NCBI GenBank assembly: GCA_949372875.1
Contig: CASIAW010000001.1
Location: 372,001-436,000 of the forward strand
DNA: 64,000 nt
Origin: Candidatus Poseidoniaceae archaeon
GTDB lineage: Archaea > Thermoplasmatota > Poseidoniia > Poseidoniales > Poseidoniaceae
Direction of reading: 5' to 3'
Positions 15,037 through 21,034 of the stretch are shown here, piece after piece. The notes under the pieces are model-generated. The model ran no database searches, was not told the origin of the DNA, and saw nothing but the letters and a program-made list of their open reading frames with translations. The translations under genes and the position numbers were made by a program. Every line of letters begins with the position of its first letter. Position 1 is the first letter of the stretch.

Positions 15037-15648
15037 TTACTCAGATTCAAGAGCGTTCACGACCGACAGTAATTCTTCATCACCATCGGTAATTTCTTCA
15101 ATTGCACTTGAATCTTGATGGAGCGGTAAATCCATTGCTTCAAACGGATTGATATCGTCCTCCAATAGGCAGAGAAGACGCCAGCGAGGAGCCCATGAAA
15201 GGTGAACATACAGAGGTCCAGGAAGTAAAAGTAAGAGCCAAATAAGTTCAGATGGTAGAACAAATATTTCAGTTAGCGAGATGGTGAGTAAACCAAATCC
15301 AACAAAAGGCATAGGGTAGAGGATGATACGAGGTGGCGTCACTGGGAATCTTTTGCTAATACTGACAATAATCAGAGAGACCATACCGAGAAGTAAACAC
15401 GCCACCATGATGAGAGCCGAATGGAAAATCCAGTTGGTAAGCCAACTCTCTGACTCTTGAGCAAATCGATAGGGGAGCAGTAACGCAAGAGAGACGAGGA
15501 AGCCATAAAAAGCGGAAATGTTCGAAGGATGCGACAACCAAAGTGGCAATTTGGTAAATCTTCGCGAGAGAGATGTCCCCAGCAATGTTTCACGGTCTTT
15601 TTGGCCAAGGGCTTCAAGTTGCCCTTGCCATCGCGATGAAGATTCCAT
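15037..15648 (-). CDS. Hypothetical membrane protein, four predicted helices
   Basis: 203 residues with about four hydrophobic segments (roughly 45-62, 72-95, 108-125 and 130-148) and an acidic C-terminal tail of ~45 residues containing AIEEITDGDEELLSVV. The N-terminus is cytoplasmic-like and basic. I do not recognise a family. It ends two bases from the convergent synthase gene and lies 57 bases downstream of another minus-strand membrane protein gene whose acidic tail is similar in style, so the pair probably forms one unit. Confidence 0.6.
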   Translation of the reverse strand: MESSSRWQGQLEALGQKDRETLLGTSLSRRFTKLPLWLSHPSNISAFYGFLVSLALLLPYRFAQESESWLTNWIFHSALIMVACLLLGMVSLIIVSISKRFPVTPPRIILYPMPFVGFGLLTISLTEIFVLPSELIWLLLLLPGPLYVHLSWAPRWRLLCLLEDDINPFEAMDLPLHQDSSAIEEITDGDEELLSVVNALESE

Positions 15649-15705: not shown

Positions 15706-16356
15706 CTATTCTCTGCGTAACTTGCTGAATATCCCTTCTGGTTCAATCTCTATTGATTCTTGCTCTTCAAGCCACGAGCGCTGCAAAAGTCCCGAGTCTG
15801 ATGCTTCACGCTCTCGTGCAGATTCAATTGAATCTTCATCGCCGTTAACTGCATCACGTAATGCAATGGCTTGGTTAATTAAAATGACATAACGCTTCAA
15901 TGCTGGATGAGTTTGAGGTAATGAACTGAAATGTCCGAGAACTGCGTAGGTGTCATCGTCACGAATCAAAAGTGTACCTCCCATCAATTCATCAACCGTT
16001 AATCGAACTCTACCTTTACCAACATCACCCCAATTTCCGTCAGAAAATTGAACCATCACTACTGCCTCTCCAAGTTCCAAATCCCCCATAAATGGGTGAT
16101 TCAAATTAACTGCCAAAGGGACTCGAAGCAAGGGGGAATTTTGATAAATCACAACACCCCCAAAACAACCCAAAATGATGGCAATCAGTACGAACAAAAA
16201 ACCATTTTCAAAAGACATTAGAGCGAACACGCCTCCGACGATAAACAACTCATAGACGAGCAGTATTACGAGAAAACGATACATAAAAGGCCGAGCGATT
16301 TGCAGAGAAATAAATCGTCGCATTTCAACCGACAACTCACCCCGTTGCTCGACCAT
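15706..16356 (-). CDS. Hypothetical membrane protein, two N-terminal helices
   Basis: 216 residues. Two adjacent membrane helices (about 25-70, with a short Gly-Gly break) are followed by a soluble beta-rich part starting LRVPLAVNLNHPFMGDLELG and ending in an acidic Ser/Glu-rich tail. No catalytic motif or known domain is recognised. It is divergent from the DUF835 gene at 16411, with only 54 bases between, so the two share a control region that includes a run of nine A bases at 16401-16409. Confidence 0.6.
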   Translation of the reverse strand: MVEQRGELSVEMRRFISLQIARPFMYRFLVILLVYELFIVGGVFALMSFENGFLFVLIAIILGCFGGVVIYQNSPLLRVPLAVNLNHPFMGDLELGEAVVMVQFSDGNWGDVGKGRVRLTVDELMGGTLLIRDDDTYAVLGHFSSLPQTHPALKRYVILINQAIALRDAVNGDEDSIESAREREASDSGLLQRSWLEEQESIEIEPEGIFSKLRRE

Positions 16357-16410: not shown

Positions 16411-18549
16411 TTGAGATTCAACGGCTTGAAGATACAACCGAAAAAATACGCATTCTCTGTTCATTCGAGCCGCACCTTTCAAGAAGTGGCCCGTAAGCAT
16501 CACCCCGTAGGGGTGAGTGAATTGGTAGAACTACCGCAAGGAGATGTGACAGAAGTTCGACGAGGCGGACCCGAATCTTTGCGATTACTTTCGATGGATA
16601 TGGCGCGACTAGGAAGCACCGGTTACATTCGAATTGAGCGACGTCCTAAGGAACAAATGCCAAGAATTGGCCACATCGCTTTTCTCGATGGAAAACCAAT
16701 GTTTGCACTGCACGAAGCAGATGCAATTTCGATGTCTCTTGAAGCATTACTCGATATCGAGAATGACGCTTCACTACTCGACGCACTACTCGCGATACAC
16801 GAATTATCTTTACCTGATGCAACACAAGTACTCAGCCTTTATCCAGAAGCCCACTTCCGGGTTGAAGAAGAATCAGAACAACCTCTTGAAAACCATCAAT
16901 GGTGGTCAAAGACCAACATGAAAAGTCGCTCGTGGCGTCGAGAAGAACGCTTACCTGAACTTGAGGTCGTCGTTGAGGCACCTGAAGCGATTCGGCAACG
17001 CAGCAAAGCGCTTATGCAGCGGTATGATGGAATTGAAAAGATGATGCGCCCCGGCGATGCATACTTTTTGGATTCGGTGGATCCAGCCCCTCTTTTTGAC
17101 CTTGCTGGAAACTTAGCAGTCCATGGTCGCCCCTTACTCGTTTTAGCACGGCATGACATTGAAGCACTCAATGTAGAGCACAACATTCCAATTGCTTCAA
17201 GTTCATGGCTCTCCCAAAATGGAGACCAGCGCTCAACTGACCCCGCATTAGAAAATATTCGCCGAAGAATCGATGCTTTCCTTTGGGAAAACCTTCGAGC
17301 AGTCGTAGTTCTTGAAGGAGTCGAATATCTCGCAAGTCTACACGGTGATGAATTGGTGGTTAACTTCCTCCGGGACATCGTCGATGGTGTGCGGCTTGAA
17401 GACCATCTCTTCCTCGCTACTGGCGACTTCCATGCATTCCCTCTTACAACCAGACAACACCTGTCTCGCTACATGACAGATCTTGAACCAGCCGTTCTTG
17501 AGCATTGGAACCTCGAACCAGACCTGATACTTGACCATCCACTGTGCGCCCCAGCAAGTGAAGAAGAGATTCAATGGATTAAACAGCAATTGCAACAAGC
17601 AATTTCTTCGCCATCTTCTGAGGGCATACCACCTCAAAGCACCGTCTTTGGGACAATGGAGGGAGGACATGAATCTCTTGATTCTGAAGACATAATCGCC
17701 GCTACAGAAACGCTCGGAACTGTTGCACGTGAATGGATTCGACCAACTCAGAACCCATCACCACCCTCTCATGAGGTGAGAGAAACCAAACCTCTCGCTG
17801 AGAATGTTGTATCCAATGATATACCGGATAGTGAACTCCAACACGAGCAGCAGGTGGATGACCCTGCCTCAAGAATGAATGATGGACGAGAAACTTTCGA
17901 GAACCCGGCTTCCGAAGCTCCACCGACATCAGAAACCGGAGAAAAAGACTCAGCTATAGTTCCGGACACATCAACGCCTCAAGCCATCACTTCTCCAGAG
18001 AAAATCATCGCACCTCGGCCTGCTCAACGTGTCCGTCGTCGTAAGAAAAATGCCACAGCAAAATCCCACCCACGTCATCAACAGTCACTACATGCTGCTG
18101 CGGTACTTGCTGTTGAAGCAAAGGAACTGAGTGAGATTCAAATCGATTACTCAACCCCTGGAAGCACGTTTGCAAATTCACTTGCAACATATGCTGAACG
18201 TCAGGATTTAGCGGTGGAAAAAATGCGTGCTCATTCTTCACCGCACGGTGACTCGTCGCTGAATAATGCTTCAATCCAACTCAAAAATATTCAAGATATT
18301 GAAGAAGCAAAAGTACCTCTGCGAAAGGGTTCAATTGAATCGGTCAAAGGTAGAAGACCAGTAAATACCGAGACATCACTCACCCCACTTAACGCCAGAC
18401 CCGGTGCTTCTAGATCGGTGAGTTCAAACGTACCTACACGAGAATCTGCTTCTCGAAAACAATCTGAACCTTCTCTTGAAAACAAACTTAGCATTTGGGA
18501 GAGAGAAGATCGAGAGCGTTTAAGAAAAGAACTGGAGGGTGCAAAGTGA
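16411..18549 (+). CDS. DUF835 protein with PATAN-like N-terminus and long disordered tail
   Basis: 712 residues in three parts. Residues ~50-150 resemble the PATAN/DUF4388-type sensor-adaptor fold (STGYIRIERR..., GHIAFLDGKPMFALHEADA). Residues ~190-390 match DUF835, an archaeal domain related to degenerate RecA/KaiC folds: GDAYFLDSVDPAPLFDLAG, then a Walker-B-like strand AVVVLEGVEYLASLHGDELV and HLFLATGDFHAF. The rest is a Ser/Pro/Glu-rich, probably disordered tail with one basic patch (RPAQRVRRRKK). The first codon is TTG at 16411; a GTG at 16513 (beginning VSELVELPQGD) is a good alternative start and removes a poorly conserved leader. The stop overlaps the next ATG (TGATG), so it is translated together with the DnaA-like protein. 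Confidence 0.7.
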   Translation: MRFNGLKIQPKKYAFSVHSSRTFQEVARKHHPVGVSELVELPQGDVTEVRRGGPESLRLLSMDMARLGSTGYIRIERRPKEQMPRIGHIAFLDGKPMFALHEADAISMSLEALLDIENDASLLDALLAIHELSLPDATQVLSLYPEAHFRVEEESEQPLENHQWWSKTNMKSRSWRREERLPELEVVVEAPEAIRQRSKALMQRYDGIEKMMRPGDAYFLDSVDPAPLFDLAGNLAVHGRPLLVLARHDIEALNVEHNIPIASSSWLSQNGDQRSTDPALENIRRRIDAFLWENLRAVVVLEGVEYLASLHGDELVVNFLRDIVDGVRLEDHLFLATGDFHAFPLTTRQHLSRYMTDLEPAVLEHWNLEPDLILDHPLCAPASEEEIQWIKQQLQQAISSPSSEGIPPQSTVFGTMEGGHESLDSEDIIAATETLGTVAREWIRPTQNPSPPSHEVRETKPLAENVVSNDIPDSELQHEQQVDDPASRMNDGRETFENPASEAPPTSETGEKDSAIVPDTSTPQAITSPEKIIAPRPAQRVRRRKKNATAKSHPRHQQSLHAAAVLAVEAKELSEIQIDYSTPGSTFANSLATYAERQDLAVEKMRAHSSPHGDSSLNNASIQLKNIQDIEEAKVPLRKGSIESVKGRRPVNTETSLTPLNARPGASRSVSSNVPTRESASRKQSEPSLENKLSIWEREDRERLRKELEGAK

Positions 18550-20579
18550 TGAATGCTCGCAGAGAGAACTTAGCCCTCGCTCTTGAGTTGGCAAAGCAAA
18601 GACTGAAAGAGTCGGGTTCTGCAATACAGAGAACTCAGCAGTCTTCAAGTGATGAAAAGCCACTTCCAAAATCAAAAATGAATCGTTTACTTGGCAAAGA
18701 TATCCAAGACCAGCGCCCAAGAACCCTACTTCAGAGAACTGGTGTTGTTCAACGCCCTACATTCGATTTGGTAGCAGATAAGGTGTTGGGCAAAGAAAGC
18801 AAACGAAGAAAACCAAGTTTGGATTTGAATTCAAATGGCGACTCGCTCTCGGACATAGCTGCACGACGAATTCGTTCATTGCGTGAACGCACCTATGAGC
18901 AAATTGAACAAACGAACGATGAGGACGAAGACGGTTTTTTGGGAATGGAAGACGATGGAAGGCCTGTATGGGAGCGTATTCTTGATGAACAACGTGGACG
19001 GGTAAGTCAACCGTTAGCTCCTGAATTCGCTCCCGTAGACTCCACATCTCCCTATCATCATGAGGTCATTCTACCAAATGAAGGGAATTGGCCGCTAAGA
19101 CTACGTCCAGAGATACGATTAAGTTTCAAACAATGGTTCACGACAGAAGAAAATTACCGTGCGACACAAGCTGCAGAAGCAATTGTTGATTCACCTGGTG
19201 GACCACTGAATCCAATGCTGTTTATTGGTCCATCTGAGACGGGACGTTCACACCTTCTTCATGCGGTTGCGCAAGCAGTTCTCAGACGCCAAGAAGGAAC
19301 TGTTCACTTACTTTCAGCAGCCGACTTTTCTGGAATGAATCATTTACCTGAAGGGTGGCAAGACACTTTGGTTAATGCACGCTTATTGGCAATTGATGAC
19401 ATTCATGAATGTGCAGACAATGCAGACCTCGCTCACGAACTTGGAACAATGCTTGATTACGCCCTCAACATGGGTGTTCATGTTTTGCTCACATCAAACT
19501 CACATCCGGAAATATGGCCGACATCACGGCTATGGGAATTAACACGACACGCTGCATCTGTGAACATGGAGCCTCCAAAACAAGCAAGTATGATCCTCTA
19601 CGCACGTAGTTTAGCACAAAAAAGGAGTTTTCTGTTTAATGACGGGCAATTAGCGAGTATTGTATTACAGGGAGAAATTGGTTGGAGGGCGACAAAAGCG
19701 AACTTCGATTTGGTTGCTCTCGCTTTGCAATCGGGTGAAGAAATACTCGACAGTGAAGATGTCACATCGATACTATCCAACCAGTCCCAAGATTATGCAA
19801 CAACCGACATTGCGGAACGTGAAAAGGTCGAAGACATCGCTAACAGATTGATTTCAACTGCAGTTGATACTGTTTACAGCGACACCGTACACGGAGGTAT
19901 CGAACTCTATTCCAAGCTGCCAGAAATTGGAGATGACAACTACCAACCCCCTGACATTGATGTTGAATCATTAAAAAATGAGTTGGATGAGCGTCATGCA
20001 GCACACCTCAAACAAGCATTAGAAGACACGGCACCAGCAGCAGCCTCAGTCCTCGCTCTGCATGAGCGTGAAGAACATCTCATCACCCGTAAGGGTCACA
20101 TTGAAGAGCGCGACTATGGGATTGCTGCAGACTTACTTACAGAGTTAGATGAAGCATTTGATTCACAAATTAATGCGTTTGAAAAAGACTTGCGTGAAAG
20201 TTCATTGCAACTTGCTAGCATTGAACACAAGTTGGTGAACCTTTACCAAAGAACCCCTGATGCTTCGATGGACGAACTGATTTCTATTGCTGATGAACTA
20301 CGTTCGATGGAGGCAAGCCTCACCGAGTTTGACCCTGAGCGTGAGCCCTGGCCAGAATTGGAGGCAGACATAACACCCAAGAAGGGACGAAGAAAGGTCG
20401 GTCGTCGTAAATCAAATCCGAACAAAGTATTGGAAAGTCATGAACCTGAAGGTGAATGGAATATCGATGATCAAAGTGTCGATATGTTGGACTTACTCGA
20501 ATCGGAAAAGGTGAGTCGTACGATTAAATTGGGCCGAATGAATCAGATTCCAACGCTTGTCACGGGTGAAGAAGAATGA
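18549..20579 (+). CDS. DnaA-like AAA+ protein with degenerate Walker A
   Basis: 676 residues. The core (about 190-400) follows the DnaA/Hda pattern: FKQWFTTEENYRATQAAEAI, then LNPMLFIGPSETGRSHLLHA at 220-239, which parallels the DnaA YNPLF...GKTHLLHA block; Walker B LLAIDDIH at 279-286; and a sensor 1 strand VLLTSN at 312-317. The Walker A Lys is replaced by Arg233, so ATP binding or hydrolysis may be altered. The N-terminal ~190 residues are basic and disordered. After the AAA+ lid come long coiled-coil segments (about 480-610) and a basic then acidic tail. No DnaA domain IV DNA-binding helix motif is seen. The ATG at 18549 has GGAGGGTG before it and overlaps the DUF835 stop. It could be a DnaA paralogue used as a scaffold, not an initiator. 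Confidence 0.6.
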   Translation: MNARRENLALALELAKQRLKESGSAIQRTQQSSSDEKPLPKSKMNRLLGKDIQDQRPRTLLQRTGVVQRPTFDLVADKVLGKESKRRKPSLDLNSNGDSLSDIAARRIRSLRERTYEQIEQTNDEDEDGFLGMEDDGRPVWERILDEQRGRVSQPLAPEFAPVDSTSPYHHEVILPNEGNWPLRLRPEIRLSFKQWFTTEENYRATQAAEAIVDSPGGPLNPMLFIGPSETGRSHLLHAVAQAVLRRQEGTVHLLSAADFSGMNHLPEGWQDTLVNARLLAIDDIHECADNADLAHELGTMLDYALNMGVHVLLTSNSHPEIWPTSRLWELTRHAASVNMEPPKQASMILYARSLAQKRSFLFNDGQLASIVLQGEIGWRATKANFDLVALALQSGEEILDSEDVTSILSNQSQDYATTDIAEREKVEDIANRLISTAVDTVYSDTVHGGIELYSKLPEIGDDNYQPPDIDVESLKNELDERHAAHLKQALEDTAPAAASVLALHEREEHLITRKGHIEERDYGIAADLLTELDEAFDSQINAFEKDLRESSLQLASIEHKLVNLYQRTPDASMDELISIADELRSMEASLTEFDPEREPWPELEADITPKKGRRKVGRRKSNPNKVLESHEPEGEWNIDDQSVDMLDLLESEKVSRTIKLGRMNQIPTLVTGEEE

Positions 20580-21034
20580 GAGCGCCATGGTGGATGAAGG
20601 GCGTTGGCTTTTCGTGCCAAGAAAATTGTGGAAGATGTTGTGACGAACCAGGGGGAATTGTCTACCTCTCGGTCAATGATGCAGAGAGGATTGCGCAATG
20701 GCATGATATGAGTGTCGAGGATTGGCTTGAGCGTGATTGTCGCCAAACGCTCGACGGACGATATATTTTGAACAGCCGACCGGTTGATGATGTCTGTATT
20801 TATCTTGACCAGAACAAACAATGCTCAATCTATTCTGTTCGGCCTCAACAATGTGCTGCATTCCCATGGTGGAGTGAGAATTTAGCAACTGAACGGGCTT
20901 GGAACAAAGTAAAAGACGAGTGCCCCGGACTCACTGCCGATGATGCAATCCTCATTGATGGAGAAACGATTCGAATCCAAGTTTTTGCTGACCGTCAATC
21001 TACCAAAGGGTTCCGTTCTTGGCCTCCTTCGTAA
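20576..21034 (+). CDS. YkgJ-family cysteine cluster protein
   Basis: 152-residue protein with the CxxxCxxCC cluster at Cys14, Cys18, Cys21 and Cys22 and later Cys residues in DDVCIYLDQNKQCSIYSVRP followed by QQCAAFP, the full YkgJ (UPF0153) pattern. The family is thought to bind zinc or an Fe-S cluster; substrates are unknown. Its ATG overlaps the stop of the DnaA-like gene (ATGA), so it is the third gene of that operon. A methionine at residue 7 is a possible alternative start. The motif identification is secure, the function is not. Confidence 0.8.
   Translation: MRAPWWMKGVGFSCQENCGRCCDEPGGIVYLSVNDAERIAQWHDMSVEDWLERDCRQTLDGRYILNSRPVDDVCIYLDQNKQCSIYSVRPQQCAAFPWWSENLATERAWNKVKDECPGLTADDAILIDGETIRIQVFADRQSTKGFRSWPPS

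Follow-up and report, generated by a model that had tools for sequence, protein, structure and literature searches.

A stretch of 64,000 nucleotides (the window; positions 372001–436000 of contig C1 in the 2.16-Mb genome G000) was found to encode, in three co-directional open reading frames (ORFs), a DUF835 protein (gene A), a DnaA-type AAA+ protein (gene B), and a small CxxCxxCC protein (gene C). The pairing of A with B is deep and very probably functional, and the parts most likely work together as a control system, as the same parts are fused in one protein in related archaea. Our preferred reading, held tentatively and at a little under an even chance, is that A and B each form half of a single signal-controlled AAA+ machine. 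In such a machine, A would sense a condition via two domains, the N-terminal one and the KaiC-derived DUF835, and B would be the DnaA-type AAA+ subunit. A would contact B and control either its ATP-dependent assembly or its nucleotide state, and the output would lie on DNA or the chromosome. Hda-like control, a scaffold, and mere neighborhood were weighed as well and rank below this signal-controlled machine.

The gene boundaries were established from the ORF coordinates and from comparison with homologues. Gene A had been read from a TTG codon at 16411, but its homologues begin at an MVELPxG motif, and the start is therefore most likely the TTG at 16522, which gives a protein of 675 aa (16522–18549, plus strand). 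Gene B (18549–20579, plus strand, 676 aa) follows directly, with the TGA of A (18547–18549) and the ATG of B (18549–18551) having one base in common (TGATG). Gene C (20576–21034, plus strand, 152 aa) overlaps B by 4 nt, where the TGA of B and the ATG of C form ATGA (20576–20579). Both overlaps by which the first-pass annotation had joined the three genes are thus present. The named relatives used for comparison were Poseidoniales and Thalassarchaeaceae metagenome-assembled genomes, including the MG-II chromosome CM001443.1. The stop codon of A and the start codon of B overlap by 4 nt in all 11 of these loci, with the start of B placed by alignment in two of them (L076 and L077). As the genome holds only two places that match DUF835, one of which adjoins its single Bac_DnaA place, and as the overlap recurs in 11/11 relatives, the adjacency of A and B goes beyond chance. 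Gene C matches the YkgJ-type family PF03692 at 41.9 bits (Pfam cut-off 23) and may supply a metal centre. It was seen in nine of the 11 named loci, on the strand of A and B in six and on the opposite strand in three. C is therefore a peripheral and not a central member, and its earlier description as an equal partner was too strong.

DnaA is characteristic of bacteria; replication in archaea is taken to start with Orc1/Cdc6. B is nevertheless, as judged from profiles and predicted fold, a DnaA-family AAA+ protein with a DnaA/Hda-type core. Its AAA+ core plus lid spans about residues 190–412, within which Pfam Bac_DnaA matches residues 191–321 at 44.8 bits (cut-off 23). The same profile matches 13 of 13 relatives of B (E up to 1). 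A profile built from 12 of the relatives was searched against the Protein Data Bank and returned five DnaA chains first (E 8e-18 to 3.6e-10), followed by an EccCb chain (1.8e-4). When the core of the AlphaFold model was ranked by fold, nine DnaA/Hda entries came first (Z 16.1–13.5), ahead of clamp loaders (13.0) and an archaeal ORC2 (11.9), and Foldseek also placed DnaA/Hda closest. Only in this core is the model reliable, with block means mostly of 70–83 around residues 222–410 against an overall mean of 54.7. The DnaA domain III pattern noticed at the outset is genuine, and the core was not assigned to an ordinary AAA+ family.

The likeness to bacterial DnaA covers domain III, that is, the AAA+ core with its lid, the Bac_DnaA profile, an SHLLHA-type Walker A region, and the IDD of Walker B. 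The best fold in the Protein Data Bank is the basal unwinding system 8btg (Z 16.1). B differs from bacterial DnaA in its disordered and coiled-coil parts, in an arginine within Walker A, and in the domain IV helix–turn–helix (Bac_DnaA_C), which was found neither in B nor anywhere else in its genome. It is by definition not a DnaA, since it is without domain IV and misses by far both NCBIfam equivalog cut-offs, scoring 53.4 bits against TIGR00362 for DnaA (cut-off 343.9) and 46 bits against TIGR03420 for Hda (cut-off 194.8). Such a core, true to the DnaA type in sequence and fold, could suggest that B functions in place of DnaA at an archaeal origin, but we regard this as very improbable. Bac_DnaA_C was absent from 23/23 archaeal genomes and present in 10 bacterial control genomes, and many relatives that are at least 90% complete are without B. 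The host has Orc1/Cdc6, as had been presumed; TIGR02928 exceeds its cut-off at two places in the genome, neither of them at B. B resembles Orc1/Cdc6 in having a related AAA+ fold (Aeropyrum pernix ORC2), which ranks below all nine DnaA/Hda entries.

Closer in build is Hda, the inactivator of DnaA, which likewise combines a DnaA-type core and lid with the loss of domain IV, and whose structure 3sc3 is among the closest folds (Z 15.5). B could accordingly be a replication regulator whose target is the sliding clamp or the host initiator Orc1/Cdc6, and A would report the state of the cell; Orc1/Cdc6 was indeed present in 11/11 genomes searched. This reading is unlikely in our view. B has 676 aa, whereas Hda is a compact single domain; it is archaeal, has a DUF835 partner, and lies under the Hda cut-off. 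To our knowledge, the known partners of Hda are bacterial. Moreover, 50 of 63 sister-family genomes have no B, and the one of these searched for Orc1/Cdc6 (G149) has it nonetheless.

In gene A, two globular domains were predicted, with pLDDT values mostly of 73–93. The N-terminal, sensor-like domain occupies about residues 1–110 (counted from 16522; block means 73–90). It had been called PATAN-like; the domain itself is real and recurs in fused proteins of other archaea, but its resemblance to DUF4388/PATAN is weak (12.6 bits against a Pfam cut-off of 25). The second domain (about residues 160–340, from 16522; pLDDT mostly about 90) is the DUF835 that had been proposed for the partner of B, matching Pfam at 35.1 bits (cut-off 33.1) and in 12/12 relatives of A. 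By fold it comes closest to FlaH (Z 13.8, residues 164–325) and KaiC (Z 12.7, residues 164–332). The rest of the protein is a long disordered tail, which includes a conserved stretch of basic residues, and a C-terminal helix. In the portion of PMC5847659 consulted, DUF835 is tabulated as an inactivated KaiC-like (iKaiC) domain that occurs in combination with REC and PAS domains. A is like these archaeal signaling proteins in its KaiC/FlaH-like second domain and differs from them in being coupled to a DnaA-type AAA+ ATPase, an arrangement absent from that portion of the paper. The genome has just one more DUF835 gene (contig C1 near 133 kb; L160:4628–5539, minus strand), which encodes about 300 aa, has no DnaA match alongside, and occurs in relatives too.

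We next examined how the genes are distributed within the order. In its own family, B was detected in 138 of 145 genomes, covering 11/11 genera. An order-wide sample of 125 genomes contained B in 74, namely 61/62 from its own family and 13/63 from the sister family, the latter count including one weak match (G320). A was matched in 74/125 genomes, of which at least two (G181 from the sister family and G036 from the own family) represent only the DUF835 part of a paralogue, and C was matched in 72/125. The same 12/63 sister-family genomes carry B, C, and an A that includes its N-terminal part. This co-occurrence reflects joint gain or loss, and was given moderate weight because one deletion can remove adjacent genes. 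Among 20 fetched loci from 10 genera, single-sequence search recognized A beside B in 16. Of the remaining four, three come from one divergent genus and one is a contig that ends inside B. The conservation of the gene neighborhood across relatives, which had been suggested as a check on the pairing, is thereby borne out. Synteny alone is weak evidence, because the whole order of KBL, two short genes, A, B, C, and citrate synthase recurs across the family. It could therefore be argued that the genes are neighbors by inheritance only, with a stable gene order and unrelated jobs for A, B, and C. We consider this improbable, as DUF835 and DnaA are fused or close together in four other families (f8, f18, f20, and f33) and the N-terminal domain of A itself recurs in the fusions.

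These fused forms are the strongest evidence for the pairing. A sample of 145 genomes from the phylum was searched for strong Bac_DnaA matches (over 100 bits), and several families, with 16 genomes in all, had them. The DnaA core and DUF835 share one frame in three genomes, which belong to two families, in proteins of 977 aa (L145:8054–10987, minus strand), 867 aa (L143:4264–6867, minus strand), and 864 aa (L146:6173–8767, plus strand). In the L145 protein, the profile of the A-type N-terminal domain matches residues 5–129, Bac_DnaA matches 493–649 at 193 bits, and DUF835 matches 841–973 at 93 bits. The N-terminal profile scored 27.8 bits in L145, 20.2 bits in L146, and a weak 0.9 bits in L143. 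Profile–profile comparison of the N-terminal domain of A with that of the fused proteins gave a probability of 96.6 (E 4.9e-10) over 109 columns, by which the two are judged homologous. Going by these N-terminal, Bac_DnaA, and DUF835 matches, all three globular domains of the A–B pair share one chain elsewhere. The order of the domains differs, being sensor–DnaA–DUF835 in the fused proteins and sensor–DUF835 plus DnaA in the split genes, and the split is therefore not a simple break of the fusion. In two further loci the domains lie on neighboring genes: a DUF835 protein is encoded 75 nt from a DnaA protein in L131, and L135 has a DnaA protein, a KaiC ATPase, and then a 7TM–DUF835 protein in one gene run. 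DUF835 was thus in frame with, or within 2 kb of, strong DnaA in 5/16 genomes, compared with 0.17 expected for random places; none lay within 2 kb in the other 11, in the contigs covered, several of which are short. In families f11 and f28, the DUF835 relatives closest to the type seen in L131 had no DnaA match beside them in a profile search.

Nine of the strong DnaA proteins were scanned with Pfam and none contained Bac_DnaA_C, which was detected in the one bacterial DnaA scanned alongside. For the L139 protein this absence holds among the matches listed, which cover 25 of 29 families, and its genome has no Bac_DnaA_C. Bacterial contamination was considered as a source of the Thermoplasmatota DnaA cores and judged unlikely, for the contigs jointly and not for each separately, because DUF835 and Rad51-type genes are on the same frames or contigs and Bac_DnaA_C is absent.

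The surroundings of the fused genes suggest where the output may lie. A gene matching Pfam Rad51 is directly beside all three, overlapping by 4 nt in L143, separated by 24 nt in L145, and abutting in L146; we take these neighbors to be of RadB type from their size and family. In family f11, a DUF835 gene other than those nearest to the L131 type lies about 8 kb from the DnaA gene in two genomes, and the one of these scanned (L151:8140–11859, plus strand) has DUF835 on one chain with a HerA-type (DUF87) domain. Because of these Rad51/RadB-type and HerA-type associations, a DNA-related output is suggested for the system; in the window's own lineage, neither Rad51 nor HerA links were found. DUF835 frames similar to that of L151 are present in L150, L152, and L153.

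The active site of B was compared over 66 alignment rows, in which the window and some genomes were entered twice. At the Walker A lysine position, 37 rows have Arg, 26 Lys, two Cys, and one Gly, and B of the window has Arg (residue 233). Walker B has D at its two aspartate positions in 60/66 and 63/66 rows, Arg 327 is kept in 57/66, and the sensor II arginine in 43/66. The handling of nucleotide has therefore drifted within the order. Because the Walker A lysine is mostly arginine in the window's genus, B may bind nucleotide with little turnover there, and would act as a regulated assembly and not as a motor. Escherichia coli Hda likewise departs from the canonical sequence at the Walker A lysine.

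A lost lysine in many rows also fits a structural scaffold or spatial organizer, in which a degenerate ATPase core, coiled coils, and disorder would place other machines. This had been the first suggestion for the locus. In B, a disordered N-terminal region and a C-terminal coiled coil with a conserved tail flank the core, 321 of 676 residues have pLDDT below 50, and long helices lie between residues 472 and 592. The nearest fold of the DUF835 domain, FlaH, belongs to the archaellum. Other archaeal DnaA-like proteins, however, keep a canonical-looking Walker A and an arginine-rich box VII (both by eye), and the fusions and the Rad51 and HerA associations point to a signal-controlled, DNA-related ATPase, so that we find the scaffold claim weaker than stated and doubt that it is correct. 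A link to the archaellum was pursued and is not supported, as archaellin (PF01917; 77/125 order genomes) shows no association with B in the sister family, where it is present in 6/13 B-positive and 12/50 B-negative genomes (Fisher p 0.17). PF04659 was matched in 0/125 order genomes and is uninformative for these archaella.

In a tree of AAA+ cores, Poseidoniales B formed one clade (support 100/100) on a long branch, its sister without firm placement, and the other archaeal DnaA-like proteins sat among bacterial DnaA rows. Constraining B to join all Thermoplasmatota rows gave an AU p of 0.07, and to join the three fused rows 0.069; on this tree, the idea that B descends from the remaining archaeal DnaA-like proteins is neither supported nor rejected at the 5% level. 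Judged by architecture, it is plausible that the archaeal forms all share one origin; the sequences do not show this. In the DUF835 tree, a weak branch (53/77) set A, the fused DUF835 domains, and one additional set apart from the rest, a grouping that is suggestive only.

The domain families themselves are known, and their combination is without description in the literature searched, in agreement with the initial impression that no system with this gene set had been described. That search, which covered some sources in part and did not extend to the 2017 mBio survey of KaiC-like ATPases, returned no description of an inactivated KaiC with DnaA and, judged by titles and the openings of abstracts, none of an archaeal DnaA. 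DnaA, KaiC, and DUF835 are absent from the main-text portions consulted of PMC6461757, PMC6336850, and PMC9723583, DnaA and DUF835 are absent from PMC6393860, and no paper on DUF2226 was found in the literature searched. The A–B pair ties a conserved DnaA-type ATPase to a KaiC-like signaling domain in one of the most abundant groups of planktonic archaea, joining two ATPase families, the initiator AAA+ proteins and the clock-type KaiC, in one system. It is possible, although we are less confident of this than of the A–B machine itself, that Thermoplasmatota use a DnaA family that is without the DNA-binding domain together with fused or co-operonic KaiC-derived sensors, so that a signal from the environment or the cell cycle is passed to an assembly of DnaA type that acts on the chromosome. 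If true, this would give the DnaA fold an additional role, next to initiation (DnaA) and the shutting off of initiation (Hda). The fused versions offer a single protein in which KaiC-like control of such an assembly could be tested.

Several other architectures were seen during these searches. The DnaA-type protein of L135 (8451–11953, minus strand) has an Fn3-like N-terminal part, and the gene run in which it lies is possibly a membrane-bound version of the system. Five bacterial proteins (L088, L093, L103, L109, and L125), four from records of Gemmatimonadota type and one from an unclassified record, carry two or more DnaA-type stretches, with no Bac_DnaA_C among the matches listed. Frames of 1213–1407 aa in L130, L133, and L134 have a full-strength DnaA core and, by eye, a coiled coil, and L130 shows weak C-terminal zinc-ribbon matches. 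In the window, two short proteins divergent from A (15037–15648 and 15706–16356, both minus strand) have no Pfam match over cut-off; they look membrane-bound by eye and are kept beside the operon in most of the fetched genera.
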